Positions 3,228-27,074 of a stretch of 38,097 nt of DNA are shown piece after piece. The position numbers and the translations under genes are program-made. The number at the start of each line of letters is the position of its first letter. Position 1 is the first letter of the stretch. The stretch lies in NCBI GenBank assembly GCA_009783695.1, contig WRCY01000016.1:1-38097 (forward strand). The letters run 5' to 3'. The notes beneath the pieces are model-generated. The model was not told the origin of the DNA. It searched no databases and saw nothing but the letters and a program-made list of their open reading frames with translations. Origin of the DNA: Oscillospiraceae bacterium. GTDB lineage: Bacteria; Bacillota; Clostridia; Oscillospirales; Ruminococcaceae.

Positions 3228-3296
3228 TTAGATTTTCAATTTCGGGGAAAACGAAGATTTAAATAGATTCTCGTGAAGAAAGGACTTATCGAAAAA
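3228..3296 (+). repeat. Junction cassette copy A (eroded) in the ackA leader
   Basis: The stretch keeps the cassette landmarks TTG, TCGGGGAAAACG and GTGAAGAAAGGACTTA, ending 12 bases before the ackA ATG. A one-base deletion between TTG and TCGGGG breaks the 22-codon frame seen in good copies, and the TAATG overlap is lost. It still supplies the AGAAAGGA ribosome binding site. Confidence 0.6.
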
Positions 3297-4490
3297 ATGA
3301 AGATTCTTGTAGTCAATGCGGGCAGTTCGTCGCTCAAGTATCAACTGATAAATTTGGAAGACGAAAGCGTCATTGCAAAGGGAAATTGCGACAGAATAGG
3401 CATCGACGGAAATATAACGCATGTCGCGGGGGGACGGAAAATTCAAAAAGACATCAGCTTTCCGACACATTCGGAAGCGTTTATGAGTGTCGTGGATGCG
3501 CTTACAAAAGGCGAAGCCGCGGTTATAACAAGCATGGATGAAATTGGCGCAGTCGGGCACAGAGTCGTTCACGGCGGCGAAGTTTATTCGGGCACTGTGG
3601 ACGCCTCGGAAGAAGTAATCAAGACCATCGAAGACCTCAGCCGGCTCGCCCCGCTGCATAATCCCGCAAACGCGCTTGCGCTCCGTGCCTGCAAGCAGGT
3701 GATTCCCGAAAGCGTGCCGCAGGCGGCTGTTTTCGATACCGCGTTCCATGCTACCATACCCGAAAAAGCCTACATATACGGTATGCCCTATGAGTTTTAT
3801 GAGAAGCATAACGTCAGAAAATACGGATTTCACGGCAGCTCGCACAGCTTCGTCTGTAAGGAACTCGCTTTGCACCTCGGAAAAGATATATCGGCTATGA
3901 AAATCGTGTCCTGCCATCTCGGCAACGGCTCGTCCATTACTGCAATCGACGGCGGCAAATCCGTGGACACCTCGATGGGCTTCACGCCGCTCGACGGCGT
4001 TCTCATGGGAACGCGTGCAGGTGCGCTTGACGCGTCGGCAGTAACCTACATGATGAAGAAGCTCGGCATATCTGTCGGCGAAATGGAAAACATATTGAAT
4101 AAGAAGTCCGGTCTGCTCGGTATCGGCGGCTTCAGCGATAACCGTGACCTTACCGCCGCGATTAAAGCGGGCGATAAAAAGGCAAAGCTTGCGGGCGACA
4201 TTCTGCGCTACGGCATAAAGAAGTATATCGGCGCGTATGCAGCGGTTATGAACGGGCTGGATTACGTTATTTTCACGGGCGGCATAGGCGAAAACGCCTT
4301 TGATGTGCGCGAGGACATTGTCGGTGATTTGCAGTTCTTCGGCATTGAGCTTGACAAAGAAGCGAACGCAGTGGCGCGCGGGGAGCTGGCATGCGTGACC
4401 AAGCAGGGCAGTAAAACCGAGGTTTGGGTCGTCCCGACAAACGAGGAGCTGTTGATTGCGCGCAGCACTAAAGAGCTGTTTGGGTTATAA
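3297..4490 (+). CDS. ackA: Acetate kinase
   Basis: Acetate kinase interconverts acetyl phosphate plus ADP and acetate plus ATP, the last step of fermentative acetate formation. The 397-residue protein begins MKILVVNAGSSSLKYQL, the phosphate-binding signature. It also has HGGEVYSG, FHGSSHSFV with the catalytic histidine, and the TPLDGVLMGTRAGALD signature. I prefer the ATG at 3297 over a GTG at 3273, because the earlier start would lie in the cassette and place AGAAAGGA inside the coding region. No phosphotransacetylase gene is adjacent. A terminator follows directly. Confidence 0.97.
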   Translation: MKILVVNAGSSSLKYQLINLEDESVIAKGNCDRIGIDGNITHVAGGRKIQKDISFPTHSEAFMSVVDALTKGEAAVITSMDEIGAVGHRVVHGGEVYSGTVDASEEVIKTIEDLSRLAPLHNPANALALRACKQVIPESVPQAAVFDTAFHATIPEKAYIYGMPYEFYEKHNVRKYGFHGSSHSFVCKELALHLGKDISAMKIVSCHLGNGSSITAIDGGKSVDTSMGFTPLDGVLMGTRAGALDASAVTYMMKKLGISVGEMENILNKKSGLLGIGGFSDNRDLTAAIKAGDKKAKLAGDILRYGIKKYIGAYAAVMNGLDYVIFTGGIGENAFDVREDIVGDLQFFGIELDKEANAVARGELACVTKQGSKTEVWVVPTNEELLIARSTKELFGL

Positions 4491-4498
4491 TAATACGG

Positions 4499-4524
4499 GG
4501 ACGCTGTAACGGCGTCCTGTTTTA
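4499..4524 (+). terminator. Intrinsic terminator after ackA
   Basis: GGACGC (4499-4504), a seven-base loop and GCGTCC (4512-4517) are followed by TGTTTTA. The stem is short, so read-through into the next gene is likely. The ATG of leader ORF B begins at the end of its T-run. Confidence 0.6.
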
Positions 4525-4610
4525 TGGGAGGTCAAGGTCAAAAAATAACTGATACAAAATCGGGAAAACAAAATTTTTCATTTTCTTTTGATACAGAAAG
4601 GACGTGGTGA
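4524..4610 (+). CDS. Leader ORF B (28 codons), variant member of the junction cassette family
   Basis: ATG at 4524 opens a frame ending TGA at 4608-4610, three bases before the next gene. Its C-terminal part, KSGKQNFSFSFDTERTW, aligns with the family consensus SGKTLFSFxFxEERT. The usual TTG start position is CAA here, but an in-frame ATG lies upstream. The AGAAAGGA motif sits inside the last codons. That the frame survives a changed start argues for translation, but no protein evidence exists. Confidence 0.45.
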   Translation: MGGQGQKITDTKSGKQNFSFSFDTERTW

Positions 4611-4613
4611 AAA

Positions 4614-4976
4614 ATGGCGAAAAAATATATTCTCTATCTAATCAGATGGCAGCTCAGTACGCCGATTCTATGGCTTGTTTTAGTGTGGCTGACGGAGCTT
4701 CCCGCAATAGCTGCGACAGTAATCGCGAATCTGATTGGCGGGCTGATTTTCTTTTGGGTGGACAGGTTCATTTTCAGAACTATTTACCCGAAGCCTTTAT
4801 GGGAAATCGAAGAAGATACAGTCTGCGCGGACTGCGGCGCGCACGGTAAGGGCTACCGAATCACAGAATGGCTCGGTTATAACAGGCGAAAGGATAAAGC
4901 TCCCGAGTTCCGGTGTGAAACCTGCAAAGACGCAAAAATGAACGAAGTCAGCAATAGAATTAAAAAGAAAAAGTAA
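4614..4976 (+). CDS. Small membrane protein with C-terminal Cys4 motif (GtrA-like N-terminus)
   Basis: The 120-residue protein has two hydrophobic segments in residues ~5-55 separated by a short turn (ending GGLIFFWVDRFIF), resembling the start of GtrA-like membrane proteins. A soluble tail follows with CADCG and CETCKD, a likely zinc-ribbon pair, and a lysine-rich end. No enzyme motif is visible and I cannot assign a function. The ATG at 4614 comes 11 bases after AGAAAGGA. It is the last gene before a convergent neighbour, from which it is separated only by the CAATTG-rich repeat. Confidence 0.7.
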   Translation: MAKKYILYLIRWQLSTPILWLVLVWLTELPAIAATVIANLIGGLIFFWVDRFIFRTIYPKPLWEIEEDTVCADCGAHGKGYRITEWLGYNRRKDKAPEFRCETCKDAKMNEVSNRIKKKK

Positions 4977-5016
4977 TTGTCAATTGTACATTGTCAATTG
5001 TACATTGTTAATTGTC
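4977..5016. repeat. CAATTG-rich repeat array, copy 1
   Basis: Imperfect repeats of TTGTCAATTGTACA fill the whole gap between two convergent stop codons. The self-complementary CAATTG cores can fold on either strand. Related arrays occur at 18949-18979 and 23453-23504. Confidence 0.75.
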
Positions 5017-5018
5017 CG

Positions 5019-6500
5019 TCAGCCGCGCCCTCTGGAAGACCTCGCAATCGCTTCCATCTGCGCGAGGCTGCTGTCACTGAACTCGCCGCCGATGATTCCC
5101 ATCGCCTGATTAAGCTTCTGTGCCCTGTTATTCTTGTCCTTGAGGTTGTCGCTCAGGTGTTTCTGATAACTTCTGATATAAGTTTCAAAGCTCGGGATAT
5201 GGTCTTTATAAAGAGGGTCGTCTTTTTCCTTGACGGAAACGAAGAAGTCGTGAATCTTCTTATTATTCAAGCCGCAAAGCCGCTCGATAATATATTTATG
5301 AGTGGCGGTGAGGTCGGGATTCTCGACAATCGCACAGGCGAAGTTAAAGAAACGGTCAAAGTCCTCGTATTGCAGATAATTGCAGGCTGTGATTATGCTG
5401 TTATAATAATTCTGCGAGATGATAATTTTATCGTCATATTTGATTTCACCGGCGAGAAGCGCACCAAGCTGCTCGTCGGTAAGCTCTGTGACGGCGTGAG
5501 CCGATTCAATGGCGGAGACGTCGGGGAGAAGCTCTGCCTTGAGCAGGATTTCGCGCGGGATTGGCTTCCTTGTAACCGTACGCAGCGTTTTGAACGCTTT
5601 TCTGCGCAGCTCGGAAAAGTTCCGCGGCTTTACGCCGCTTCGGCGGAGCAGAAAGCTTTCAAGCATGGACGGCGGTATTTGCCCGATGGGAATCTTTACA
5701 TAAGGGCAGGAAAGCGCGATAATGCGCGGCTCTCTGCCGTACGCTGCCGCCTGCTCGGGAGTTTCGTAAAGCATATCACGCATAGGCTCGACTATTATGC
5801 ACCGGAACTCGGTATCGCTCAGCAGGCAGGCCGTCGCGCTGTGATGCCCGTCGAGCAGCGCCGAAAACATTCCGGACATATGAAACGCCAGCCCCCCCAC
5901 CTTTTTACCCGCCGCAATTTTCTCGCGCTGAGCACGAACCTTGGCTTCGGTAAATTCAACGGGGCTGGTCGTCGGGATTAAAAAGCAGGGGATGAAGTTG
6001 CTGTCCCTGCCCATCGTGCGGTTATGCGCCGCAGTTCCCGGAACCTCGCGCCTGTGCATGTAGGCGCTCCAGAAAAACTCGCCCCCGCCGTTGCTGGGAA
6101 TCATTTTTGAATCATGGCAGACATAAATCCCCTCGGACAGCAGCTCCAAAAAAGGATGAAGCGCCTTAGTCATGCTTTGCTGATAGGTGAAGTAGCTGTC
6201 GCCTACAGAGGAAAGAATAGTCTTTATATTTTCATCATTAACGGCAGTAGTAGTGCTTATTTGATTAACTAATTTATCGGAGAATTCGTTGCCCTTTGCG
6301 GGTCTTGTCATGTTTATTACAGCTTCCTTGCCGCAGTAGAGGATTTCTGTAACAGGGGAATGTTCCATAGGATTCATCGAAGCGCCCGAAACAACTGTGG
6401 TTCCGATAACGTCGTGCGACTTTGAAACATCGACTAAAAGAAACTCACGGCTCCCGACAGTCATGTGATAAGTGTTTATTAATGACATGGTTATTCTCAT
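5019..6500 (-). CDS. Conserved-looking protein of unknown function with an LDGHHSATA motif
   Basis: The protein has 493 residues, no signal peptide and no clear membrane segment. I do not recognise the family. Around residues 210-235 it reads GGLAFHMSGMFSALLDGHHS, recalling the DGHHR-type motif of ParB/sulfiredoxin-like folds; this is a weak resemblance. The N-terminal 200 residues hold a GGGEFFWSAYMHRREVPGT segment, and the C-terminus is helical and charged. The ATG at 6500 overlaps the stop of leader ORF C as TAATG. An in-frame ATG at 6488 could be the true start. It follows the YcxB-like gene on the same strand and is probably co-transcribed. Confidence 0.7.
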   Translation of the reverse strand: MRITMSLINTYHMTVGSREFLLVDVSKSHDVIGTTVVSGASMNPMEHSPVTEILYCGKEAVINMTRPAKGNEFSDKLVNQISTTTAVNDENIKTILSSVGDSYFTYQQSMTKALHPFLELLSEGIYVCHDSKMIPSNGGGEFFWSAYMHRREVPGTAAHNRTMGRDSNFIPCFLIPTTSPVEFTEAKVRAQREKIAAGKKVGGLAFHMSGMFSALLDGHHSATACLLSDTEFRCIIVEPMRDMLYETPEQAAAYGREPRIIALSCPYVKIPIGQIPPSMLESFLLRRSGVKPRNFSELRRKAFKTLRTVTRKPIPREILLKAELLPDVSAIESAHAVTELTDEQLGALLAGEIKYDDKIIISQNYYNSIITACNYLQYEDFDRFFNFACAIVENPDLTATHKYIIERLCGLNNKKIHDFFVSVKEKDDPLYKDHIPSFETYIRSYQKHLSDNLKDKNNRAQKLNQAMGIIGGEFSDSSLAQMEAIARSSRGRG

Positions 6501-6568
6501 TAAGTCCTTTCTTTACAAAAGTGGAATGAAAACATCGTTTTCCCCGATTCAGTTGTGCTTATTTTCAA
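6500..6568 (-). CDS. Leader ORF C, 22-codon junction cassette peptide
   Basis: TTG at 6568-6566, preceded by GAAAGGAAG at good spacing, opens 22 codons ending TAA at 6502-6500. The peptide starts MKISTTESGKTMF and ends HFCKERT. The last A of TAA is the first base of the next gene's ATG. The AAAGAAAGGA site for that gene lies inside the ORF's final codons. The frame, length and stop/start overlap match copies D, E, F, K1 and K2. Confidence 0.55.
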   Translation of the reverse strand: MKISTTESGKTMFSFHFCKERT

Positions 6569-6652
6569 ACTTTTTACTTCCTTTCAAGGAAATATGCCTA
6601 TATTTATGCACAAAGCATTGCCAGCGACGGCTTTTTCCGCGAGGGTAAGCCG

Positions 6653-7522
6653 CTACTTTTGGACGAGCCTTTCGTGGATAAAACCGGAAATTTCGGTTTG
6701 CACTTCTTTGGAGAAAAGCCTCTTCGGGAGCCAAAAAACTGCTTTGTTGTGCTTATAAATTATAAAAACATTATTGGTTTCAATGAAATAATTCGCCTCT
6801 TCCCAGGGGATAAACTCATGTCCCGAGAAAAGATGGCTCTCCACCGCGGAAAATCCGGCAGTTGAAATGGTAAAGGTAATCTCCTCGGAAAGAGCGGGGT
6901 CGGTCTTATAAAGATGCGCGTAATGGTAATTGGCGATTACGGCGCAGACTAAGTATACTAGCATAACAGCGATTCCGCCCGAGAAAGCAGAAATCGGCAG
7001 AAACCAAAACCAGTTCTGCGCTGTATCGCCCCAAATGAAGTGCAGAATAATAAACACCGCGGTTATTGCAACAGCGGCAATAAGCTTGAATATATTTCCA
7101 AGGCGGGTGTTAAGCAGAATCACATTGCTTAGGTTTATCTCGCGCTCCTTATAGTAGCCGTTCACGTTGTACGGCGTGTCGCCTGCATCGCCGCTGAGAT
7201 AGAGGTATTTCGGCGGGAGAATCCGCTTTTGATGGCTGTATTCGATTTTGGGGTTAAATGAAACCGCGCCCTCCAAGACGCCGCGTAGATTAAGCAGCTT
7301 CTTCTCGTCGGGAAGACCCGTTTTCGGTATTTTATAAACAACGCCGGCTACATTGATTATGAATTCGATTTTATTTTCAGTTATGGATTTTACTTCCGTC
7401 CAGCGGTAAATGGTCGGATTTTCTTCGCCTTTTTGATAAACGGCGAAAAAATCTCCGATTACAAAGGTTTGTTCCGCGGCGTACGAAGAAACCTTAACAC
7501 CGGGAAGAGACTCAAAAGCCAT
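6653..7522 (-). CDS. Membrane protein with C-terminal YcxB-like domain
   Basis: The protein has 289 residues. The soluble N-terminal part (to ~135) is unassigned. Two transmembrane helices follow (about 140-165 and 170-200). The C-terminal ~80 residues match the YcxB-like domain pattern: ITFTISTAGFSAVES, an FIPWEEANYFIET strand pair, and FWLPKRLFSKEV near the end. YcxB-like domains are structurally PH-like and have no established biochemical role. I chose ATG 7522 because AGGAGGAG sits five bases upstream, and rejected a longer frame from 7567. It is transcribed from the consensus promoter at 7633-7662, and two hairpins lie in its leader. Confidence 0.75.
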   Translation of the reverse strand: MAFESLPGVKVSSYAAEQTFVIGDFFAVYQKGEENPTIYRWTEVKSITENKIEFIINVAGVVYKIPKTGLPDEKKLLNLRGVLEGAVSFNPKIEYSHQKRILPPKYLYLSGDAGDTPYNVNGYYKEREINLSNVILLNTRLGNIFKLIAAVAITAVFIILHFIWGDTAQNWFWFLPISAFSGGIAVMLVYLVCAVIANYHYAHLYKTDPALSEEITFTISTAGFSAVESHLFSGHEFIPWEEANYFIETNNVFIIYKHNKAVFWLPKRLFSKEVQTEISGFIHERLVQK

Positions 7523-7566
7523 TTTAACTCCTCCTCTTTTCGGTATCCCTGAGGTTTTAATCACCA

Positions 7567-7601: not shown

Positions 7602-7632
7602 TCAAACGTTTTGTATTTAGATGTGTGATTTT

Positions 7633-7674: not shown

Positions 7675-7706
7675 AGATTTCAGAAAATAGAAAGGACATA
7701 GAGAAA

Positions 7707-9146
7707 GTGTCAGATAAAAAATTAGTACAAGAGATTACTTCACGCGATGAGGATTTCGCCAAATGGTACACCGATATAGTAAAAAAGGCGGAGCTTATCG
7801 AGTATTCGAGCGTGAAAGGTTGCATGGTTATACGCCCTTACGGCTATGCTATTTGGGAAAATATACAAAAATACCTTGACCGGCGCTTTAAAGATACCGG
7901 ACACGAGAATGTCTATATGCCAATGTTCATACCGGAGAGCTTACTGAACAAAGAGAAAGACCATATCGAGGGCTTTGCACCGGAGGTAGCGTGGGTGACG
8001 CATGGCGGAAGCGAGCAGCTTGCAGAAAGAATGTGCGTCCGTCCGACTTCGGAAGTGTTGTTCTGCGAGCATTACAGGCAAATTATCTCGTCATACCGTG
8101 ACCTGCCCAAGCTGTACAATCAGTGGTGTTCGGTGGTACGCTGGGAAAAGACCACCCGCCCGTTCCTGCGCTCGCGCGAATTTCTGTGGCAGGAGGGACA
8201 CACGGCGCACGCTACAGCCGAGGACGCAATAGAGGAAACCGAGCGCATGTTGGGAGTTTATGCAGAGCACTGCGAGCAGGCGCTTAATATGCCGGTGATT
8301 AAAGGCAAGAAAACCGAAAGCGATAAATTTGCGGGGGCGGTTTCAACCTACTGCATAGAAGCCCTCATGCACGACGGCAAAGCGCTTCAGGCAGGAACGT
8401 CGCACAACTTCGGCGATAAGTTCGCAAAAGCCTTTGACATAACCTACACGAGCAGGGAAAACAAGCTCGAGCATATTCACCAGACCTCGTGGGGCGTTAC
8501 AACAAGGCTCATAGGCGCGGTCATAATGTCGCACGGCGACGACTCGGGGCTTGTACTGCCGCCGGCGATTGCTCCGGTTCAGGTGGTGATAATCCCCGTT
8601 GCCCAGCACAAGGAGGGCGTGCTTGAAAAAGCAAATGAACTTAAAGCGCAACTTTTAAGTGCCGGCTGGCGTGTTAAGGTTGACGACAGTGATAATTCGG
8701 CGGGCTGGAAATTCTCAGAATACGAGATGAAAGGCGTGCCGCTGCGGCTTGAAATCGGGCCGAAAGACATCGAACAGAATCAGTGCGTAATCGTGCGGCG
8801 CGACACGAGGGAGAAGACGTTTGTTTCACTTAACGAGCTTGAAAGCAAAGTTGCGGAACTCATGAACGCGCTCGCTGACGGCATCTACGAAAGAGCGCTC
8901 GCAAACGTCAAAGCCCGGACTTATACGTGCATAAATATCGAAGATATGAACTCCGTGCTCGCCGCAAAAGGCGACGGCTTCATTAAAGCGATGTGGTGCG
9001 GCTCGGAAGTATGCGAAGACGAGGTTAAGGAGAAGACAGGTGCAGGCTCTCGGTGTATGCCGCTTCGACAGGAAAAGGTATCCGATGTTTGCGTCTGCTG
9101 CGGTAAACCCGCGACAGCACTGGTTATTTGGGGAAAGGCATATTAG
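7707..9146 (+). CDS. proS: Prolyl-tRNA synthetase, short archaeal/eukaryal-like type
   Basis: ProRS charges tRNA(Pro) with proline. The 479-residue length and motifs mark the type without the bacterial editing insertion: class II motif 1 around [13 protein letters not shown], motif 2 around RTRPF-like [21 protein letters not shown], and motif 3 near [19 protein letters not shown]. The anticodon-binding domain follows ([10 protein letters not shown]), then the C-terminal domain with CRMCG-like cysteines near GSRCMP and CVCCGKPA. The GTG at 7707 is used, with AGAAAGGA ten bases upstream. Leader ORF D begins one base after its TAG stop. Confidence 0.96.
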
Positions 9147-9147
9147 T

Positions 9148-9216
9148 TTGAAAACAAATAAAACAGATTCGGGGAGAACGTTGTTTTCATTCCACTTTTG
9201 TGAAGAAAGGACATAA
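9148..9216 (+). CDS. Leader ORF D, 22-codon junction cassette peptide
   Basis: TTG at 9148, one base after the proS stop, opens 22 codons ending TAA at 9214-9216. The peptide starts MKTNKTDSGRTLF and ends HFCEERT. Its stop shares its last A with the ATG of the next gene. GAAAGG in the end of proS could be its ribosome binding site. It thus bridges proS and the surface-protein gene without a gap in potential translation. Confidence 0.55.
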   Translation: MKTNKTDSGRTLFSFHFCEERT

Positions 9217-9872
9217 TGAGAATAAAAATGAAAAAAACGGCAGCATTAGTACTCGCTTTTATTCTGTTAACAGCTTTCAGTGTAAACGTGTTTGCGGAGG
9301 AGGCTGAAGCCGAAGCCAACGAAAGCATTGAGAACGGCGAGGCAGAGGAAAACGAGGAAGAAAACACCATTGAGCACGTCAACTGTGAGATTTGTGAGAA
9401 CGATATTGAATTCTGCGTGTGTGAACCCGAAGACCCGGAGGATACGGAAGACCCTGAGGAAACAGAGGAGCCGGAGGACACGGAAGACCCGGACGAGCAG
9501 GAAACATCCGATATTTACGAGCCCGAGGTTACCGAGGATTCTGATGTTTCAGAACCCGAACCCGCGCCGCCGCCGCCGTATGTTCCCCCGCCTCCTCTGC
9601 ACGCGGACGATTTGATTTTTGACGAATCTCATCGTATTACGGAAACGCAGCCACCACCGCCCGAATCAGAACCCGAGCCTGTACCGGAAGACGAGTTGAA
9701 CACAACACCAATCGTAATGGGCGAAAGCTTCGACAATCCGGGCGGCAGGCCCCCCGGAGGCTCGACCGTAGTGCCTTTGATTGTCATTTTATCGCTTTTA
9801 ATCGCGGGAGCAGGAACGGCAGCGCCGTTTGTATTCAAGTATTACAGAAGAAAAATGATTTACAGGTATTAA
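9216..9872 (+). CDS. Exported, acidic Pro/Glu-rich protein with C-terminal membrane anchor
   Basis: The 218-residue protein starts MRIKMKKTAA and has a signal peptide ending near VFAEEAEA. A long acidic low-complexity region carries EDPEDTEDPEETEEPEDTED repeats, then a Pro-rich stretch (PPPPYVPPPPL). The C-terminal helix VVPLIVILSLLIAGAGTAAPF is followed by basic residues (KYYRRK). A short ICENDIEFCVC segment before the repeats may bind metal or form disulfides. This is the layout of a wall-spanning stalk held by a membrane anchor; there is no LPxTG. The ATG at 9216 overlaps the leader ORF D stop. An in-frame ATG at 9228 is an alternative start. Confidence 0.75.
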   Translation: MRIKMKKTAALVLAFILLTAFSVNVFAEEAEAEANESIENGEAEENEEENTIEHVNCEICENDIEFCVCEPEDPEDTEDPEETEEPEDTEDPDEQETSDIYEPEVTEDSDVSEPEPAPPPPYVPPPPLHADDLIFDESHRITETQPPPPESEPEPVPEDELNTTPIVMGESFDNPGGRPPGGSTVVPLIVILSLLIAGAGTAAPFVFKYYRRKMIYRY

Positions 9873-14770: not shown

Positions 14771-15415
14771 ATGTTGCGCTATTCGTATGTGATTTGGGAT
14801 TGGAACGGAACGCTGCTTGACGATGTTGACTGGTGTGTGAATGTGATTAACCGTATGCTTTTAAGAAGAAAATTAAAAACATTTGATGGAATCTGCGATT
14901 ATCACGAGGTTTTTTCATTCCCCGTGATTGATTATTACAGGAAAATAGGTTTTGATTTTGAGAAAGAGCCTTTTGAGGATTTAGCCGTTGAGTACGTTGA
15001 GGACTATTATTCGGGGAGCTTTAAGCTGCATGAAAATGCAGAGGATATTCTCCGCATAATTCATGAAAAAGGCATTAAACAGGCAATATTATCCGCATCG
15101 GAGATTAATTACCTGAACGCGCAGCTTTCCGGATTTGATATAACGAAGTACTTTGATGAAATTCTTGGAATATCGAATATTCTTGCAGGCAGCAAGACTG
15201 AAGCAGGCAGGGAATTTATAAAGAGGAATAACGTTAAAAACGCGCTTTTTGTCGGAGATACAGAACATGATTTTGAAACTGCGAAAATGCTCGGCGCAGA
15301 CTGCGTTTTAATTGCCCGCGGTCATCAAAGCAGGGAACGGCTTATGCGGCTCGGCGCTCCCGTGCTTGACAACATTACAGGTGTTTTGGAGTATTTAAAT
15401 CTTGAAACAGGGTAA
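14771..15415 (+). CDS. HAD-family phosphatase, phosphoglycolate-phosphatase-like
   Basis: The 214-residue protein has HAD motif I as IWDWNGTLLDD (D10 nucleophile; Asn in place of the second Asp, common in this clostridial branch). Motif II is in AILSAS, motif III lysine in the GSKTEAG region, and motif IV is GDTEHDFETAK. The cap is the helical C1 type (residues ~17-85). The substrate is unknown; phosphoglycolate or a nucleotide are the usual candidates. It abuts yfbR with zero spacing, suggesting coupled translation and perhaps linked phosphate-ester metabolism. Leader ORF F begins inside its last codons. Confidence 0.85.
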   Translation: MLRYSYVIWDWNGTLLDDVDWCVNVINRMLLRRKLKTFDGICDYHEVFSFPVIDYYRKIGFDFEKEPFEDLAVEYVEDYYSGSFKLHENAEDILRIIHEKGIKQAILSASEINYLNAQLSGFDITKYFDEILGISNILAGSKTEAGREFIKRNNVKNALFVGDTEHDFETAKMLGADCVLIARGHQSRERLMRLGAPVLDNITGVLEYLNLETG

Positions 15416-15470
15416 TAGTGAATTAGGGAAAACATTGTTTTCACTTCCTGCCGGTGGTGAAAGGGTTTAA
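15402..15470 (+). CDS. Leader ORF F, 22-codon junction cassette peptide overlapping the HAD gene end
   Basis: TTG at 15402 lies out of frame inside the last HAD codons and opens exactly 22 codons to TAA at 15468-15470. The peptide starts MKQGNSELGKTLF and ends PAGGERV. The usual TAATG is TAATAG here. The length is preserved even though half of the N-terminal codons come from the HAD gene's end, which suggests selection on the ORF or a precise insertion. Confidence 0.5.
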   Translation: MKQGNSELGKTLFSLPAGGERV

Positions 15471-15477
15471 TAGAAAT

Positions 15478-15795
15478 ATGATAAGATGTTCACGGTTTAC
15501 GGTTATAGACGAGTCTTTTATATGCGCTGTCTGCGGCGCGGCGATTGCGCCGCTCGGGTATACCGCCCGCGACCATTGCAGCAAGTGCCTTTGCTCGCTT
15601 CACCTCGACGAAAACCCCGGCGACCGCCTGAGCGGCTGCGGCGGAGTGCTTATGCCGATTGGAGCGGAGCAGGGGAAGAAAGGCGTGAAAATTATTTATA
15701 AGTGCAGAAAATGCAAAATGCAAAAGAAAAATATCGCCGCAAAAGACGACGATAACGAGATGATTATAAAATTATTTTCAAATCCGCTCACATAA
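15478..15795 (+). CDS. RNHCP-domain zinc-ribbon-like protein
   Basis: The 105-residue protein matches the RNHCP domain: FICAVCGAAIAPLGY, then RDHCSKCLCSLHLDENPGD in place of the name-giving RNHCP, then SGCGGVLMPIG and YKCRKCKMQ. Four CxxC-type cysteine pairs suggest zinc binding. The molecular role of this family is unknown. I chose ATG 15478, which follows AAAGGG by 12 bases. Its end overlaps the convergent HMA-like gene by eight bases. It is the last gene of the plus-strand run starting at nrdD. Confidence 0.85.
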   Translation: MIRCSRFTVIDESFICAVCGAAIAPLGYTARDHCSKCLCSLHLDENPGDRLSGCGGVLMPIGAEQGKKGVKIIYKCRKCKMQKKNIAAKDDDNEMIIKLFSNPLT

Positions 15796-16138: not shown

Positions 16139-16621
16139 TTAATTCATTCCGATTAAACTTTTATCTTCGTTTCTGAGATAAAGCGAGGTTAAATCCATCA
16201 CATTCAATATGCTGACACTGTTATCCTCGTCCGGGGTGAATTCAAAGTCAAACAGGTTTATGAAGTACAGCTCGGTTTCTTCTAAGTAACGGGGTTTTGC
16301 ATACAGATCGTCTACGGTGAGGATAAAATCATTTAAATAATCCTCTCTGTCGGAAAGCAGAAAAACATAAGGAACGATAACGCCCCCTTTGGAAACAGCG
16401 CAGTTGGCTCTTATTACTTTCGCCGCCCCCGATACGTAGTACTCAATGGAGGTGAAAACATAATCGGTGGCGCTTTCGAGCTCGGGGTAGTCCCACATGC
16501 CCTGCTGAAGAGTAATGTTAGCGCGTGCGGCGAACTTTTCGGCATTGGTATAATCAGCTCCGCACGCCGCCAGCGAAAAAACAATAACGATGACTGTGAA
16601 AAGCGATATGATTTTTTTCAT
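16139..16621 (-). CDS. Putative lipoprotein, function unknown
   Basis: The 160-residue protein starts MKKIISLFTVIVIVFSLAACGADY: a short lipoprotein signal peptide with lipobox LAAC, so lipid-anchored outside the membrane. The mature part is acidic and has no motif I recognise. The ATG at 16621 is reached by a three-codon ORF (ATG at 16629) whose TGA overlaps it as ATGA. The AGAAAGGACTTAATG arrangement just upstream is the tail of a junction cassette. A strong terminator follows. The upstream gene on the same strand is D-LDH. Confidence 0.8.
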   Translation of the reverse strand: MKKIISLFTVIVIVFSLAACGADYTNAEKFAARANITLQQGMWDYPELESATDYVFTSIEYYVSGAAKVIRANCAVSKGGVIVPYVFLLSDREDYLNDFILTVDDLYAKPRYLEETELYFINLFDFEFTPDEDNSVSILNVMDLTSLYLRNEDKSLIGMN

Positions 16622-16652
16622 GTTTCCATTAAGTCCTTTCTTTATAATCGTT
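16622..16652 (-). repeat. Junction cassette copy G (3' part only)
   Basis: Only the cassette end remains, AAAGAAAGGACTTAATG, followed by ATG GAA ACA TGA. The TGA overlaps the lipoprotein ATG. The upstream frame still ends ...KERT-stop, but the SGKT part is gone, replaced by a terminator-like hairpin. Confidence 0.55.
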
Positions 16653-16658
16653 TAACTT

Positions 16659-16678
16659 AAAAAACAGCAAAGCTGTTT
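16659..16678 (-). terminator. Weak intrinsic terminator after D-LDH
   Basis: AAACAGC-TTT-GCTGTTT is followed by TTT on the minus strand, 32 bases after the dehydrogenase stop. The stem is short and U-poor, so read-through into the lipoprotein gene is likely. Confidence 0.5.
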
Positions 16679-17740: not shown

Positions 17741-18016
17741 CTAATCCTCTAATCCTTTAAGCAAGTCTTCGGCAAGCTTCAAGTCGCGGTGAGCGGCGTC
17801 CTCTCTGTCGGAGATTACGGTGAGCTTTACCTCGTCGCCCTCCTTAAAATTACCCGAGAGAAGCCCAATCAGGCTCTTCATAGCTATCTGCCGAGATTGG
17901 TCCTTTGCTATGTAAACGCTGGAGCTTGCTCTTTTTGAAAGCGTGTCAATCATAACATTAACAAACCTGTTGTTCCAGTCGACCGCTATCTTAACTTGCT
18001 TTTCAACAGTAAACAT
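17741..18016 (-). CDS. HPr-like protein lacking the phosphorylatable histidine
   Basis: The 91-residue protein has the length and C-terminal pattern of HPr: AMKSLIGLLSGNFKEGDEVKLTV corresponds to the HPr Ser46 helix and following strand, and a helix with EDLLKG ends it. At the position of the HPr active-site segment GIHARPA it reads NNRFVNVMI, with no histidine. It therefore cannot accept phosphate from EI in the usual way. The serine equivalent to Ser46 (S48) is kept, so a Crh-like regulatory role through HPr kinase is possible but unproven. It lies two bases before the D-LDH gene. A degenerate cassette and a promoter precede it. Confidence 0.65.
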   Translation of the reverse strand: MFTVEKQVKIAVDWNNRFVNVMIDTLSKRASSSVYIAKDQSRQIAMKSLIGLLSGNFKEGDEVKLTVISDREDAAHRDLKLAEDLLKGLED

Positions 18017-18092
18017 ATTTTAATAAGTCCTTTCCGCAACGGTGAAAATGAAAAGCTTCATTTTCCTCGATTCAATATCATTTATTTTTCAA
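18017..18092 (-). repeat. Junction cassette copy H (degenerate) before the HPr-like gene
   Basis: TTG at 18092, GAATCGAGG, a hairpin and GCGGAAAGGACTTATTAAAATATG keep the cassette order. One inserted base breaks the TTG frame, and TAATG has become TATTAA. The hairpin is stronger than in other copies: GAAAATGAA pairs with TTCATTTTC over a four-base loop. Confidence 0.6.
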
Positions 18093-18125
18093 TTTAAACT
18101 TAGCGTCTTTGCGGTTATTATTACC

Positions 18126-20007: not shown

Positions 20008-20024
20008 CGGCTGTCCCCTTTTTT

Positions 20025-20280
20025 AATCGAAACTTATTACGCACGCGGTGATTATCATGTTTTTAATCGAAACTTATTATGCACGCGGTAATTGCCATGT
20101 TTCAATCGAAACTTATTATGCATGCGGTAATTATCATGTTTTTAATCGAAAACTTATTATGCATGCGACAATTGCCATGTTTTAAATCGAAACTTATTAT
20201 GCATGCGGTGATTGCCATATTTTAAATCGAAACTTATTATGCATGCGGTGATTGCCATATTTTAAATCGAAACTTAACAT
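20025..20280. repeat. Tandem array of ~40-bp units between secE and nusG
   Basis: Six full units and a partial seventh begin with AATCGAAACTTATTATGCA at 20025, 20065, 20104, 20144, 20185, 20225 and 20265, spacing 39-41 bases. Each then has TGCGGT, a variable ATTRCCAT and a T/A run. There are no unique spacers, so this is not CRISPR. The unit length is not a multiple of three, so it is not a coding repeat. It lies in the transcribed leader of nusG, and its last unit ends near the nusG ribosome binding site. Confidence 0.95.
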
Positions 20281-20313
20281 TTGCGCGGATTTAGTTTAAT
20301 GCTTTAACAGTTA

Positions 20314-20604
20314 TTAACCTGAGTACGCAAGTTCTAAAACCATCGCGAAAAGCGAATCCAGCCCGAAGATAATCGCCGCAGTTAAAACTATGGCGGTGAG
20401 CACCACGCCCGTGTTGTTGAGCACCTGCCTGGGTGTGGGCCATGTGACCTTTTTGAATTCAGCCTTAGCATCCTTAAAATACCTAACAGGGGAGCGCCTC
20501 GGGCGTTTCGCCGCGGCGGCTTTAAGGGCGTTTCTTTGGTTTTCGCGTTTTTCGCGTTCCTTTTCCTTTGATTCCCGTGCGAACTCTTTGTCAAGATTTG
20601 CCAT
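20314..20604 (-). CDS. secE: Preprotein translocase subunit SecE
   Basis: SecE clamps SecY in the protein-conducting channel. The 96-residue protein has a charged N-terminal helix, then the SecE signature RYFKDAKAEFKKVTWPTPRQVL and one C-terminal transmembrane helix (TGVVLTAIVLTAAIIFGLDSL). Its length and single helix are typical of Gram-positive SecE. The ATG at 20604 follows AAAGGAGAAAGG. The rpmG stop is 18 bases upstream. Confidence 0.96.
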   Translation of the reverse strand: MANLDKEFARESKEKEREKRENQRNALKAAAAKRPRRSPVRYFKDAKAEFKKVTWPTPRQVLNNTGVVLTAIVLTAAIIFGLDSLFAMVLELAYSG

Positions 20605-23452: not shown

Positions 23453-23504
23453 TAATTGTATATTGTCAACTGTCAATTGTCAATTGTCAACTGTCAATTG
23501 TATC
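23453..23504. repeat. CAATTG-rich repeat array, copy 3, running into mnmA
   Basis: Alternating TTGTCAACTG and TGTCAATTG units start right after the SGNH stop. From 23480 on, the array supplies the stop codon and last residues of mnmA (minus strand, ...QLTVDN). Confidence 0.8.
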
Positions 23505-24517
23505 GTCCCGCCTCCGACTACAGCTTCGCCGTCATAAAAGACTATGCTTTGCCCCGGCGTCAGCGCTCTTTGCGGGCTGTCAAAAGCGACGTGAACCCTG
23601 TCGCTGTCTATAGGAGAAACCGTGCAGGGCTGCTCCTGCCCCGAATAACGGGTTTTTGCATGCAGGCGCAGAGTTTCATGAAGTCCGGAAAAAGCAATCC
23701 AGTTAAGCTCGCGGGCGTGAAGTCTGCTTGAAAACAGCTCCGAGTTCACGCCGGCTGTGACCGTGTTGCTGCTTGCATCTTTTCCGGTTACGTAAAGAGG
23801 CGCGGGCGCTGCGAGCCCGAGTCCTCTGCGCTGTCCGATGGTGTAGTTGATTATGCCGTTATGTTTTCCGAGGATTTCACCGGTTTTGTTAATAATGTTG
23901 CCGCTTTCGGGAGATTTGCCTGTATAGCGCTTTATATATCCGGCATAATCGCCGTCGGGGATGAAGCAGATGTCCTGGCTGTCGGGTTTGTCCGCGTCGA
24001 GTCCGTTTTCGCGCGCGAGTTTACGTACCTGCGCTTTATCAAGGTTTCCGAGCGGGAAAACCACGCGGCTCAGCTGCTCCTGTGACAGCCCGTAAAGTAC
24101 ATAAGACTGGTCTTTTGCAGTCAATGCTTTTTTAAGCAGATACCGTCCGCCCCCCTTGTCGAATTCAACCCGCGCATAATGCCCTGTCGCCATAAACCCG
24201 CAGCCGAGCGACTTCGCCGCTTCAAGCAGTACACCGAATTTGATGTGCTTGTTGCAGACGACGCAGGGGTTCGGGGTCTCGCCGTTTATGTAAGAGTTTA
24301 CGAAACTCTTTATTACATCATGCCTGAACCGTTCTTTAAAATCGAAGACATGGTGCGGGATTCCAAAGCGTTCGGCGACTGCGCGCGCTTCCTCGCAGGC
24401 AGCCTTTGCGCCGTCAAACAAACTCATTGTTGCGCCGATAATTTCATATTTATCTTTAAGCAGAGTATACGCGACCGAGCTGTCGACGCCTCCGCTCATA
24501 GCCAGCATTAATTTCAT
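23480..24517 (-). CDS. mnmA: tRNA-specific 2-thiouridylase MnmA
   Basis: MnmA forms 2-thiouridine at the wobble position of tRNA(Lys), tRNA(Glu) and tRNA(Gln), using ATP and a persulfide sulfur. The 345-residue protein begins MKLMLAMSGGVDSSVAYTLL with the PP-loop SGGVDSS. It has ETPNPCVVCNKHIKFG with the first catalytic Cys, and SQDICFIPDGDYAGYI with the second. The ATG at 24517 follows AAAGGGAC by six bases; the longer frame to 24601 crosses the promoter. Its last residues, IQLTVDN, are encoded by the CAATTG repeat, so the C-terminus has probably been rewritten by that element. Confidence 0.96.
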   Translation of the reverse strand: MKLMLAMSGGVDSSVAYTLLKDKYEIIGATMSLFDGAKAACEEARAVAERFGIPHHVFDFKERFRHDVIKSFVNSYINGETPNPCVVCNKHIKFGVLLEAAKSLGCGFMATGHYARVEFDKGGGRYLLKKALTAKDQSYVLYGLSQEQLSRVVFPLGNLDKAQVRKLARENGLDADKPDSQDICFIPDGDYAGYIKRYTGKSPESGNIINKTGEILGKHNGIINYTIGQRRGLGLAAPAPLYVTGKDASSNTVTAGVNSELFSSRLHARELNWIAFSGLHETLRLHAKTRYSGQEQPCTVSPIDSDRVHVAFDSPQRALTPGQSIVFYDGEAVVGGGTIQLTVDN

Positions 24518-24591
24518 AACAGTCCCTTTCCCGCATGCATTTTTTTGAACATTGCTTTTCCGGTTTATATGGCTTTTGCTTCTATCAATCC

Positions 24592-24620
24592 ATTCTACCA
24601 TAAATTTACGTTAAAAACAA
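24592..24620 (-). promoter_or_regulatory. Probable promoter of mnmA
   Basis: Minus-strand TTGTTT (24620-24615) and TAGAAT (24597-24592) are 17 bases apart. Confidence 0.55.
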
Positions 24621-24630
24621 GATATTTTGC

Positions 24631-24659
24631 TTGCAAATAACCGCGATTTGTGGTATAAT
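24631..24659 (+). promoter_or_regulatory. Sigma-A promoter of the YesL-like gene and downstream genes
   Basis: TTGCAA (24631-24636) and TATAAT (24654-24659) are 17 bases apart, ten bases from the divergent mnmA -35. Confidence 0.75.
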
Positions 24660-24688
24660 TATATTTATTATTATTCGGAGGTAACGCT

Positions 24689-25522
24689 TTGCCTTTATTC
24701 GGCTTTTTCGATTACGGTAAATCAGGCAAGGGAATTGCAAAAGACGCGCCTGTTAAAAGACCTTTCTTTAAATTCTGGGAGCTGTTCGCTCGTAAATTCT
24801 GGAAGTTTTTCTATATAAACTTTATTTACGTGCTTTTTTGCCTGCCGGTTGTAACGTTCGGACCCGCGACGGTCGCGATGACACAGGTAATGCGGAAGTT
24901 CACGCTCGAGCAGCCGATATTCACGTTTGACGAGTTTTGGAAGGCGTTCAAGAAGAATTTCAGGCAGTCGGTGGGTCTGGGAATTGTGAACGTAATATTC
25001 ATCGTATCTTTCGCATATGCGTATACTTATTATGATATTTTGACAATGCTCGAGCCTACGTTCTTCAACCTTGCCCTGATGTCAATGACGATTGCGGCGG
25101 GTGCGTTTGTGCTGATGATGCATTTTTACATCTACCCGCAAATTGCCGCTCTTACATTAAACCTCAATCAGATTATAAAAAACTCGCTTCTTTTAGTAGT
25201 GCTCGGGATTAAAGGCAGCCTGGTTACGCTTGTGTTCACGATTTTAATCCTGGTGGCGCTGGTCATATTCTTCCCGTTCTCGCTCTTTGTGCTGCCGGTT
25301 CTTCCGTTTGCCTGGCTTAATTTCCTGATGGTTTTCAACACCTACCCCGTAATTCAAAAGTATATTATTACGCCGTTCTACGAGGCGAAAGGCGAGAAAA
25401 ACCCCGAAATCCCCGATTATTCAACAGAAGAGGACGGGGAGGAAGCGCTTTTTGAGGACTTCGGCGGGCGCGAGGCCGCAATTAAATCCAAACCGAAGCC
25501 GAAAGGAAAGGTTATTAAGTGA
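24689..25522 (+). CDS. YesL-like (DUF624) membrane protein
   Basis: The 277-residue protein starts MPLFGFFDYGKSGKGIAKD, then FWELFARKFWKFFYINFIYVLFCLPVVTFGPAT, the DUF624/YesL signature. About five transmembrane helices follow, and a charged cytoplasmic tail (EEDGEEALFEDFGGRE...KPKPKGK) ends it. YesL in B. subtilis sits among rhamnogalacturonan-use genes, but the molecular role of the family is unknown, and no sugar genes are nearby. The TTG at 24689 is supported by GGAGG seven bases upstream. A tandem cassette array separates it from the PHP gene. Confidence 0.85.
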   Translation: MPLFGFFDYGKSGKGIAKDAPVKRPFFKFWELFARKFWKFFYINFIYVLFCLPVVTFGPATVAMTQVMRKFTLEQPIFTFDEFWKAFKKNFRQSVGLGIVNVIFIVSFAYAYTYYDILTMLEPTFFNLALMSMTIAAGAFVLMMHFYIYPQIAALTLNLNQIIKNSLLLVVLGIKGSLVTLVFTILILVALVIFFPFSLFVLPVLPFAWLNFLMVFNTYPVIQKYIITPFYEAKGEKNPEIPDYSTEEDGEEALFEDFGGREAAIKSKPKPKGKVIK

Positions 25523-25542
25523 TGTTTTAAAACCCGTCAGTA

Positions 25543-25800
25543 GAGAAAGGGCTTAGTGTTATTTAGTTAGAAGTTATAACTATTAAGTTGGAGAAAACGA
25601 TGTTTTTAATATTCGTTAGTGAAGAAAGGGATTAGTGTTATTAAGTTACAAATTATAACTGTTGAATCGGGGAAAACGATGTTTTTAATATTCGTTAGTG
25701 AAGAAAGGGCTTAGTGCTATTTAGTTAGAAGTTATAACTATTAAGTTGGAGAAAACGATGTTTTTAATATTCGTTAGTGAAGAAAGGACTTTGTTAAAAT
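25543..25800 (+). repeat. Junction cassette array J: 79-bp tandem units before the PHP gene
   Basis: The GAAAGGG/A marker recurs at 25545, 25624, 25703 and 25782, exactly 79 bases apart, giving three full units after a partial one. Each unit keeps a 22-codon frame of the cassette type ending FVSEER plus T, A or D, with GAAAACGATGTTTTT as hairpin. The start codon position is TTA rather than TTG, and the unit stops are TAG overlapping GTG (TAGTG). The last unit ends GAAAGGACTTTGTTAAAAT just before the PHP ATG and provides its ribosome binding site. Confidence 0.85.
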
Positions 25801-26667
25801 ATGAAAGCTGACCTGCACTGTCATACTACATTATCCGACGGTTCCCTCGGAATCGAGGAAACCATCGCACAGGCAAAGCGCAATAACTTAGACTGCATAT
25901 CCATAACCGACCACGATACGCTGTCGTCGCTTTCGCGTTCGAGCGTTTTAGGGCAGCGTTACGGCGTAACCGTGATTCCGGCGGTCGAGTTCTCCGCCTT
26001 TGACGGCGCGAGAAAATCAAAGGCGCATATTATCTGCTACCTGCCTAAAAAACCCGACAGGTTAGAGGGGCTTTGCATGCGCACGACTGACTTTCGTAAG
26101 CGGCGCGGAGTGAGCATGGCGAAGAAGGTGATTGAAAAATACAACATCTCACCCGACCATATTGCGCGGTATTCGTCGGGGAGCAATGCGATTTACAAAT
26201 GCCATATTATGCATGCGCTGATGGATTACGGGCACACGACGCGGCTCTACGGCGGACTTTACAAGAAGCTGTTCAATATGGAGGACGGGCTCTGCGCTGA
26301 GGAAGTGAGAAATGAGATTAAAGAGTATCCCGAGGTGAAGTTTGTGATTCAACTAATTCGCTCGGCGGGCGGAATCGCAGTGCTCGCGCATCCTCGGGTT
26401 TACGACAACTTCGATTTGCTTGAGGAGCTCGCCGAAAAAGGCGATATTGACGGCGTTGAGGTCTGGCATCAAAGCATACGCGACAACGACGAGAAGAATT
26501 TACTTGAGGTCGCTGGGCAATATAATCTTATAACCACAGGCGGTTCGGATTTTCACGGATTTTACAATCACAAGGCGAAGCCGCTCGGCTCGAATCTGAC
26601 GCCGGCAGCGTCACTGCAGAGAATGCAGGCTTTTCACAGTAAAAAGGAAAAGGAAATGAAAGTATAA
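25801..26667 (+). CDS. PHP-domain phosphoesterase (RNase AM/YciV-like)
   Basis: The 288-residue protein begins MKADLHCHTTLSDGSLGIEE, the first PHP metal motif (HxH). SITDHDTL, a VEFSA glutamate, VLAHP and TGGSDFHG complete the metal site. The order matches the stand-alone PHP phosphoesterases that hydrolyse 3',5'-nucleoside bisphosphates or trim RNA 5' ends. An insert of ~80 residues between the second and third motifs is the usual helical cap. The ATG at 25801 follows AGAAAGGA by 12 bases. The next gene is reached through two tandem leader ORFs starting two bases after its stop. Confidence 0.88.
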   Translation: MKADLHCHTTLSDGSLGIEETIAQAKRNNLDCISITDHDTLSSLSRSSVLGQRYGVTVIPAVEFSAFDGARKSKAHIICYLPKKPDRLEGLCMRTTDFRKRRGVSMAKKVIEKYNISPDHIARYSSGSNAIYKCHIMHALMDYGHTTRLYGGLYKKLFNMEDGLCAEEVRNEIKEYPEVKFVIQLIRSAGGIAVLAHPRVYDNFDLLEELAEKGDIDGVEVWHQSIRDNDEKNLLEVAGQYNLITTGGSDFHGFYNHKAKPLGSNLTPAASLQRMQAFHSKKEKEMKV

Positions 26668-26669
26668 GT

Positions 26670-26738
26670 TTGGATATAAACATAACCAAATCGGGGAAAA
26701 CGTTGTTTTCATTCCGCTTTTGTGAAGAAAGGACTTAA
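26670..26738 (+). CDS. Leader ORF K1, 22-codon junction cassette peptide
   Basis: TTG at 26670, two bases after the PHP stop, opens 22 codons ending TAA at 26736-26738. The peptide starts MDINITKSGKTLF and ends RFCEERT. TAA overlaps ATG 26738, which opens leader ORF K2. K1 and K2 are near-identical 80-bp neighbours, so this is a tandem duplication of the cassette. Confidence 0.6.
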   Translation: MDINITKSGKTLFSFRFCEERT

Positions 26739-26818
26739 TGAAAACAAGCTTGAGAATAAATGAATCTGAATCGGGGAAAACGTTGTTTTCATTCCGTTTT
26801 TGTGAAGAAAGGGCTTAA
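26738..26818 (+). CDS. Leader ORF K2, tandem copy of the junction cassette peptide
   Basis: ATG 26738 (overlapping the K1 stop) or the family-type TTG at 26750 leads in one frame to TAA at 26816-26818. The peptide from TTG starts MRINESESGKTLF and ends RFCEERA. The stop overlaps ATG 26818, which opens ATG AAA ATA TGA. That TGA overlaps the start of the TSCPD gene. GTGAAGAAAGGG near the end of K2 is the shared ribosome binding site. Confidence 0.6.
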   Translation: MKTSLRINESESGKTLFSFRFCEERA

Positions 26819-26825
26819 TGAAAAT

Positions 26826-27074
26826 ATGAAAATATATGAAATTCAATCAAAGAATGTCTGCGCGCAGAAAATAACTTTCGCGCTTGAGGACGGAATAATA
26901 CATGACGTTAAGTTCCACGGCGGCTGCAGCGGAAACGCCAAAGGCATGGCAAACCTGCTTGAGGGAGCGGACGCCCGGGAGGCTATACGCCGCCTTGAAA
27001 ACGTCACCTGCCAGAACAGGGGAACTTCCTGTCCGGCGGAGCTTGCAAAAGGATTAAAGGAAGCTATAGAATAG
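26826..27074 (+). CDS. TSCPD-domain protein (TIGR03905-like)
   Basis: The 82-residue protein starts MKIYEIQSKNVCAQKITFAL and has HDVKFHGGCSGNAKGM, then NRGTSCPAELAKGL, the TSCPD motif that names the domain. The same domain occurs at the C-terminus of some ribonucleotide reductases; the small stand-alone form has no known function, and its conserved cysteines suggest metal binding. I chose ATG 26826, whose first bases overlap the TGA of a three-codon ORF, because earlier in-frame starts lie in the cassette. A bidirectional terminator follows. Confidence 0.88.
   Translation: MKIYEIQSKNVCAQKITFALEDGIIHDVKFHGGCSGNAKGMANLLEGADAREAIRRLENVTCQNRGTSCPAELAKGLKEAIE

Follow-up and report, generated by a model that had tools for sequence, protein, structure and literature searches.

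The locus examined here raises a simple question: why should unrelated genes be preceded, almost up to their start codons, by nearly the same sequence of about 80 bp? The locus is a 38,097-nucleotide stretch of DNA (the window) from an Oscillospiraceae bacterium, i.e., positions 1 to 38,097 of contig WRCY01000016.1 in assembly GCA_009783695.1. The genome of the window, designated G000, is a 2.23-Mb draft in 97 contigs with a completeness of 94%, the window being its contig C16; the genomes of relatives used for comparison carry other G numbers (G012, G023, G085, etc.). On the evidence below, the repeated sequence probably represents a family of small, dispersed, non-coding mobile elements that insert directly before start codons and replace the ribosome-binding site of the host gene.

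The unit spans approximately 78 to 80 bp and is non-coding. It consists of AAGTTTGAAAATAAA, about 10 variable bases, the 12-base core TCGGGGAAAACG, a further 22 to 25 bases, and AGAAAGGACTTAATGAAAAT, after which the gene follows; the G000 consensus is approximately AAGTTTGAAAATAAAYACAACTGAATCGGGGAAAACGTTGTTTTCATTCCNCTTTTGTGAAGAAAGGACTTAATGAAAAT, followed by the ATG of the gene. The spacing between the core and the Shine-Dalgarno (SD) motif is tight (22 to 25 nt), and the best-kept part besides the SD is CGGGGAAAACG. The initial annotation had regarded the SD part as an extended match to the anti-SD sequence, and this holds: AGAAAGGA fully matches the 16S tail CACCTCCTTTCT in all three 16S copies of the complete congener G014 (a 16S gene was looked for in G000 and not found). 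Two details of that annotation had to be given up. The GTTTTC motif, described as a fixed part, is not constant and is represented by AAACTTTTC or GTTTAA in other subfamilies, and the ATG within CTTAATG is mostly not the start codon. Instead, the start lies 10 to 14 nt past AGAAAGGA in 106 of 150 sites, at 12 nt in 67 of them; the 20 sites with a scored distance of 4 nt reflect, at least in part, choices of the gene finder. Pairing of the core with 16S was rejected, the best alignment reaching only 7 of 11 positions. A conserved RNA structure or riboswitch was rejected as well: RNAalifold yielded 0 pairs across 67 copies and no palindromic unit, a covariation scan gave no convincing helix (single column pairs at z 4.1 versus 2.3 to 2.7 in shuffled data, without stacking), and Rfam showed no match in the window at gathering scores. 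Single copies displayed a weak folding excess (mean z of -0.30 to -0.66 versus shuffles, the latter value for the whole unit), and the accessibility of the SD resembled that of shuffles (0.585 versus 0.577).

The core is present in 216 exact copies in G000, compared with 1 for its reversed control. In the window it occurs 17 times with up to two mismatches, whereas 100 shuffles gave a mean of 4.1 and none as many as 17. Copies were counted in an 806-kb sample of G000 (36% of the genome, window included), for which 746 genes were predicted by our own simple gene finder. A joint rule for core and SD reduced 425 core-like matches to 243 copies at 166 sites, 115 of them single and 51 tandem with 2 to 5 units; the 10 sites located within predicted genes are mostly chance matches. 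The reversed control of the sample gave 53 core-like matches, every one with two core mismatches, and none of the 53 adjoined an SD motif at up to three mismatches. Diverged copies extend beyond the strict rule, as many of 71 GAAAGG(A/G)C starts show a degenerate core (40 listed). Because 32 of 40 relatives contain the bare 12-mer too, in most cases at 1 to 5 copies and in none at more than 28, the criterion is the whole unit and not the 12-mer. Read in frame, the 12-mer encodes S-G-K-T, the end of the Walker A motif, and such coding may explain some of its matches inside genes. G039 and G015 contain 11 and 10 exact 12-mers (reversed control 0 and 3) and gave none and one match, respectively, to R1, a sequence model of the unit built from 67 G000 copies; Walker A codons could account for some of these copies.

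The copies are positioned with respect to genes. In the sample, the SD of an element lies 3 to 20 nt before the start of 132 of the 746 predicted genes, and of the 156 sites that lie outside predicted genes, 150 are oriented toward a gene on the same strand (three face an opposite gene, and three have none in reach). An open reading frame (ORF) of at least 50 codons begins 2 to 21 nt after the SD at 139 of the 166 sites, compared with 408 of 2000 positions drawn at random. Among the 27 sites that deviate are coincidental matches of the core within genes, units of an array separated from its last unit, a 37-residue gene too short for the test (presumably L36-like), and a few units preceding a terminator-like hairpin. 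At two places in G000, on C1 (minus-strand 135472) and C6 (minus-strand 15371), an element with an SD-like motif upstream is followed by such a hairpin and by no gene of at least 50 residues. The sample holds four tRNA genes, none preceded by an element, which is too few for a control. Elements are found in ribosomal-protein, ATP-synthase, and other housekeeping operons. The initial view of a transferable module that supplies unrelated genes with a ribosome-binding site is thus borne out by the many copies, by their place before ORF starts, by the various kinds of genes that carry them, and by relatives lacking single copies; the counts in G000 showed that the copies reach far beyond the window, nearly all before start codons. 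The proposed location at same-strand gene junctions was correct as a mild preference (114 of 131 element genes versus 560 of 730 genes overall), but the junction itself is not the target, which is the interval from the native SD of a gene to the start codon.

In the window, an unfiltered run of R1 gave 13 matches at E <= 4e-6, partly by construction, as some window copies were among those used to build the model. The copies and the associated original SDs are as follows.

3219..3297, plus strand: element copy with a diverged 5' half before the acetate kinase gene (start 3297; Pfam Acetate_kinase); R1 55.8 bits, E 1.3e-16
4539..4615, plus strand: diverged copy before ORF 4614-4976; R1 41.3 bits, E 4e-12; site empty in G012
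6492..6574, minus strand: copy near consensus before ORF 5019-6500(-); R1 74.3 bits
6579..6585, minus strand: GAAAGGA, original SD of the same gene upstream of the inserted element, matching the SD of the empty site
9143..9224, plus strand: copy before ORF 9216-9872; R1 64.4 bits
14099..14180, plus strand: copy before a YfbR-like gene (start 14180); R1 77.2 bits, the best in the window
15397..15478, plus strand: diverged copy before the RNHCP gene (start 15478; Pfam RNHCP); R1 34.6 bits, E 5e-10
16621..16660, minus strand: 3' half only (SD part) before ORF 16139-16621(-), core unrecognisable; R1 22.1 bits, E 4e-6, model positions 45-84
18016..18096, minus strand: copy before an HPr-like gene (start 18016), original SD decayed; R1 48.6 bits
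25521-25559, plus strand: weak partial unit beside the array of the PHP-domain gene
25564..25801, plus strand: tandem array of three units (25564-25636, 25641-25716, and 25722-25801; 79-bp period) before the PHP-domain gene (start 25801); matched by R1
26650..26654, plus strand: AAGGA, original SD upstream of the 26664 unit, alignable to the SD at the unoccupied site in G023
26664..26745, plus strand: first unit of a two-unit array; R1 75.9 bits
26747..26826, plus strand: second unit of this array, before the TSCPD gene (start 26826); R1 72.3 bits

Ten of the eleven loci listed in the initial annotation are thereby covered, the one at 16652 as a half element only; the eleventh, 19476(-), was unmatched at E <= 1 and contains only the ribosome-binding site GAAAGGACTATT and a vaguely similar stretch upstream.

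Comparison with relatives revealed the sites in their empty state. G023, which is collinear with G000 (82% identity over the longest match), lacks the element at all seven element starts compared in the window and shows an ordinary SD, spacer, and start codon there; in G000, a unit of about 78 bp with its own SD is located between the original SD, or its remains, and the ATG. G012 lacks the element at five compared window starts. Specifically, the site at start 3297 is empty in G023, G012, and G017 and holds a copy in G020; that at 6492..6574(-) is empty in G023, G012, and G017, with the G012 contig extending only about 35 nt upstream; start 14180 is free of the element in G012, G023, G020, and G017, where the start context differs (TTG in G023 and G012); start 18016(-) is empty in G023, G012, G017, and G020; and the array site at start 25801 is empty in G023. 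The G012 contig next to the 6500 orthologue (C162, L140) begins with GCTCTTCCGATCT, presumably a remnant of a sequencing adapter. At 6500(-), G023 reads CGAAAGGATGTTTTAAATT+ATG and G000 GAAAGGAAGTAAA-element-ATG. At 26826, the element-free G023 sequence ...AAAATATAA+ATG (GGAATTGAAAATATAA+ATG) corresponds to GGAAATGAAAGTATAA+GTTTGGA...AAAAT+ATG in G000. The insertion at 9143 overlaps the upstream stop codon (native TATTA+AATG, here TATTA+GTTTG...); the junction in G012 is GGAAAGGCGTATTAAATG, and the protein downstream there matches weakly, with 42-47% identity.

The cleanest empty site is start 85210 in the ribosomal-protein region, belonging to a gene that we take to be rplD-like. It reads aaagggaggaagataaa+ATG in G000, aaagggaggaagaagaa+ATG in G023, and aaagggaggaaaaagca+agtttgag...gatgaaaat+ATG in G012; the insert is thus present in G012 alone, directly before the ATG, with the spacer length kept and nothing duplicated. 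The evidence for placement directly before the ATG comes from single clear cases, namely this site, 26826, and 9216 (there one base earlier), and from the invariant 3' end of the G012 copies. Some G000 copies have extra bases before the ATG (AATAACC at 6500), and the six usable pairs of empty and filled sites gave spacer differences scattered from -12 to +1. Among the 84 first copies in G000 whose 5' end is clear, 57 show a relic SD, versus 28 of 84 in shuffled sequences; old copies in ribosomal operons often lack one where G023 retains, e.g., AAGGAGG, and we take this to mean that the original SD decays once the element has taken over. In the ribosomal-protein region, the element precedes 13 of 32 starts in G000, 7 of 26 in G012, 3 of 25 in G006, 1 of 25 in G020, and none of 30, 29, and 27 starts in G023, G017, and G003, respectively, as scored with the G000 core, which leaves at least one diverged-looking copy each in G000 and G006 unscored.

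Signs of recent spread are clearest in G012. Seven of its copies (L058, L067, L072, L076, L080, L084, and L087) are identical at 83 of 83 positions including the ATG, while their flanks and genes are unrelated (two lie near contig ends), and 24 of its copies form one subfamily. The identical copies begin with AAGTTTGAAACAAAA at the 5' end and terminate with GACTTAATGAAAAT at the 3' end. For 39 of 51 recent first-in-array copies from G012 and G085, an SD-like motif was found 0-9 nt upstream. The 51 copies are followed directly by ATG in 32 cases, by ATG past one or three bases in 10 (9 of them in G085), and by a further unit in 7; at the 32 targets with an immediate ATG, the sequence was ATGAA in 23, compared with 31.7% of 498 other starts. 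In arrays, units are spaced mostly 69-82 bp apart, 67 of 77 distances falling within 75-82 bp. Adjacent units have a median identity of 0.93 (n=70), versus 0.61 for random units, and since neighbouring units are mostly near-identical, local duplication is common in arrays. Two dissimilar pairs joined at SD-spacer+unit, C4 9498/9578 (0.59) and C2 78964/79040 (0.58), fit insertion of an element into an older copy; the pair with the lowest identity, C4 661/769, is a chance core match. At L089 in G012, a tandem duplication extends 12 bases into the downstream gene, which shows ordinary duplication to be one route of array growth.

The family is patchily distributed. Among 71 congeneric genomes searched with R1, 7 were rich in matches (at least 27 to at least 74), 3 had 1-3, and 61 had none, and 24 other genomes of the order gave a single weak match in one; these counts are lower bounds, the first 63-75 candidates of each genome having been scored. 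At 100 comparable starts in G000 and G085, 2 carried the element in both genomes, 25 in G000 only, 6 in G085 only, and 67 in neither (Fisher p=1.0), an absence of association as expected for independent insertions. A search with a window protein led to four relatives in a named collection, all Oscillospiraceae metagenome-assembled genomes. Since two of the sample codes of these relatives, Emb289 and Nt197, appear in termite-gut genome papers (PMC7024585, PMC7886697), the termite gut is the likely setting.

How such an element might act can be outlined from these sequences. After insertion, ribosomes would initiate from the SD of the element, and the original SD, about 80 nt away and too distant, would decay over time. 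A finished insertion would rebuild the order SD-spacer-ATG, so that the element could insert into itself, and the SD it carries would render an otherwise damaging insertion harmless, permitting spread through ribosomal-protein, ATP-synthase, and housekeeping operons. A bolder formulation is that this is the first mobile DNA element that targets the translation start, being placed between SD and start codon through recognition of the start codon (ATG(AA) plus surroundings, or the translated mRNA), giving a complete new ribosome-binding site, recreating its own target, and stacking in arrays, with about one-sixth of the genes of the genome, ribosomal-protein genes included, behind it; for this formulation we see the balance as even.

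Several observations weigh against a mobile element of this kind. Terminal inverted repeats are absent, as AAGTTTGAAACAAAA and GACTTAATGAAAAT, read from identical copies, are not inverted repeats, and no target duplication was seen by eye in the flanks of recent copies or in the comparison of empty and filled 85210 sites. The enzyme search, limited to Y1 transposases (PF01797) and reverse transcriptases, gave 0 Y1 matches in G000, none in G006 and G012, and a weak one in G020, and no reverse transcriptase in G000, G006, and G020 and one in G012. Among recent copies, 12 of 51 have no SD-like motif within 14 nt upstream (5 of 32 in G012, 7 of 19 in G085), and in 2 of 51 the next triplet is ATA or ACG in place of ATG. 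The G012 sites form a nested subset of the G000 sites: by the scoring used, 10 starts carried the element in both, 10 in G000 only, 1 in G012 only, and 29 in neither (10/11 versus 10/39, p=1.5e-4), and hand re-scoring of two rows changed these counts to 12, 9, 0, and 29 (12/12 versus 9/38). Because most of the shared sites differ in sequence, the G012 copies being closer to their own consensus, either copies were replaced in place or the same starts were hit repeatedly. Furthermore, some orthologous leaders are very similar, namely those of atpA (60/61 identical in G000 and G023, with the first 47 coding bases identical as well and the sequence farther upstream unalignable), C4_15428 (98% in G000 versus G012, at a protein identity of 76%), and rplV (66/71, G000 versus G012); the value for an rpsK-like gene is 67/81. 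Because some copies are conserved far above the third codon positions of ribosomal genes, which are 65-68% identical between these genomes, the comparison suggests that some old copies may be under selection and functional, or recently exchanged, rather than purely selfish. Finally, the close comparison of carriers involved draft genomes only.

Some further results belong with these points. Clean descent of the sites shared by G000 and G012 was rejected, as ribosomal-protein sites slightly favour G000+G023 instead (305 versus 235 and 220), a tentative order of splitting. The atpA copy (L036 in G000, L229 in G023) is the only R1 match in G023 at E <= 1e-3, and G012 and G006 carry other copies at atpA. 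Gene names not derived from Pfam are our assignments from the protein starts and are to be taken as presumptive. The IS200/IS605-REP route and the retro route were set aside, their Pfam families not having been found in G000. With regard to a vector, positions 26660-26840 gave no blastn match in phage and plasmid collections, and viral contigs contained no exact match to the pattern.

The similarity of orthologous old copies (93-98% at atpA, rplV, and C4_15428) also speaks in favour of a translation operator, in which CGGGGAAAACG, as DNA or RNA, would bind a regulator, copies would be kept for common control, and their spread would be a by-product of regulon building. The tight spacing between core and SD argues for such an operator, as do array units that can retain the core without an SD (from a listing of exact cores only). 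In copies found by the SD alone (class 0.65-0.75, n=66), the core is better kept than its surroundings (0.90 versus 0.76 on the left and 0.63 in the mid part), a contrast overstated by the gap-permissive alignment (0.57 in control genes) and by subfamily differences in the mid part. Carriers of various kinds, gene sets that differ between species, and the lack of a conserved fold speak against common control, and G023 runs the same operons almost element-free (0/30 starts); we consider an operator possible but doubtful.

An origin by ectopic recombination or gene conversion, with ribosome-binding-site regions copied via microhomology at the SD and ATGAA and no dedicated element, appears unlikely. 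It would agree with the lack of a mobility gene in the Y1 and reverse transcriptase searches and of target duplications, with the excess of ATGAA at recent targets, and with shared sites that differ in sequence, and the near-identical adjacent units and the G012 array duplicated together with 12 gene bases show that local duplication occurs. However, identical tracts of 83 bp in unrelated flanks and clean insertions at element-free sites exceed what conversion of an existing copy would produce, and homology of 3-5 bases would strike many other places.

That the unit encodes a short, conserved leader peptide (LKINTTESGKTLFSF..CEERT), coupled to the gene and with the original SD driving its translation, is very improbable. 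In G000, G012, and G085, an open frame in the consensus runs from TTG to a stop immediately past the SD (one codon later in G085), the original SD lies at a suitable distance from the TTG, which is kept in 95 of 158 copies, and stop changes in G000 are below expectation (21 versus 35.1). Nevertheless, synonymous/replacement changes are neutral (65/139 versus 63.4/139.5 in G012, 73/128 versus 65.6/136.2 in G085, and 159/480 versus 144.9/480.1 in G000), and the frame between 5' end and SD is not kept (71/57/30 versus 66.6/51.7/39.7 expected), by which the peptide is largely refuted. Least credible of all is an ancestral leader of the genus lost in most species, to which the near-identical atpA copies of G000 and G023 would conform but which would require precise loss very many times, element-free genomes, also G017 (0/29) and G003 (0/27), keeping an intact SD-spacer-ATG at the same starts.

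If a mobile element is accepted, it resembles several known systems in part. Miniature inverted-repeat transposable elements (MITEs) and small bacterial repeats such as Correia, RUP, BOX, and ERIC are short and non-coding, with hundreds of dispersed copies and lineage-specific bursts; to our knowledge, MITE-like repeats are recognised by terminal inverted repeats, target duplications, or stable hairpins and are not tied to start codons. The present element is likewise short, non-coding, and dispersed in hundreds of copies, with lineage-specific bursts, but is set apart from these descriptions, as we know them, by its fixed place at the start codon and in having no inverted ends, duplications, or hairpins. 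REP/BIME sequences are moved by RAYT (Y1) transposases and also form hundreds of extragenic copies, whereas here there is no conserved palindrome and no Y1 transposase was found in G000. DNA uptake sequences are short motifs repeated in unrelated flanks and not tied to start codons, whereas the present copies share flanks over about 78 bp and a fixed place before start codons, and leader peptides or attenuators differ in the selection on the encoded peptide, for which the counts here were neutral with some shortage of stop changes in G000. Literature searches, covering titles and the beginnings of abstracts, showed no such element. According to a study on Staphylococcus aureus (PMC13009471), extended SD motifs there pair beyond the usual core, as AGAAAGGA would, but as a property of native start sites and not of a dispersed insert. 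The nearest published system found is that of the TAACTGA direct repeats of the Beggiatoaceae (MacGregor 2015, PMC4679880), which are dispersed, often tandem, and in most cases located a few nucleotides before a start codon, including starts in ribosomal-protein operons, with no functional gene class, a patchy phylogeny, and a mechanism of spread described as unknown. These repeats are heptamers that hardly resemble an SD and overlap the region where the ribosome-binding site would lie, just 15 (~10%) of the repeat regions also holding an SD. Forward-oriented dispersed repeats directly upstream of starts (here at 150 of 156 sites) are the common trait; the system described here differs in its unit of about 78 bp with an SD of its own, its position downstream of the original SD, the demonstrated empty sites, and the lack of tandem TAACTGA heptamers. 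Because the testable defining features of MITEs and REP sequences were not found and the nearest published repeats, TAACTGA, come without an SD, the present element, which combines placement at start codons, donation of an SD, and self-targeting, is rated as a new kind.

Few parts of a bacterial gene are less tolerant than the gap separating its SD from the ATG, yet this gap has been invaded hundreds of times, ribosomal-protein operons included. If the reading is confirmed, it shows how a mobile element can make its place of insertion safe by carrying its own ribosome-binding site. The empty and filled sites would then provide natural before/after gene pairs for measuring the effect of the SD, spacing, and 16S pairing, and mobile-element biology is faced with a new question, i.e., how an insertion finds a start codon.

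Three other repeats were noted in the window. A 40-bp unit (AATCGAAACTTATTATGCATGCGG...), unrelated to the cassette described above, is arranged in tandem at the intergenic positions 20010-20314, with at least six copies. A short dispersed intergenic repeat of the ACAATTGACAATTGTCAATTG type occurs at 4961, 18936, and 23440, at L016, and in several congeners, including the same operon in G023, G017, and G020. Cysteine-rich repeats at 37162-37630 comprise two 79-bp copies 390 bp apart and a third, partial copy.

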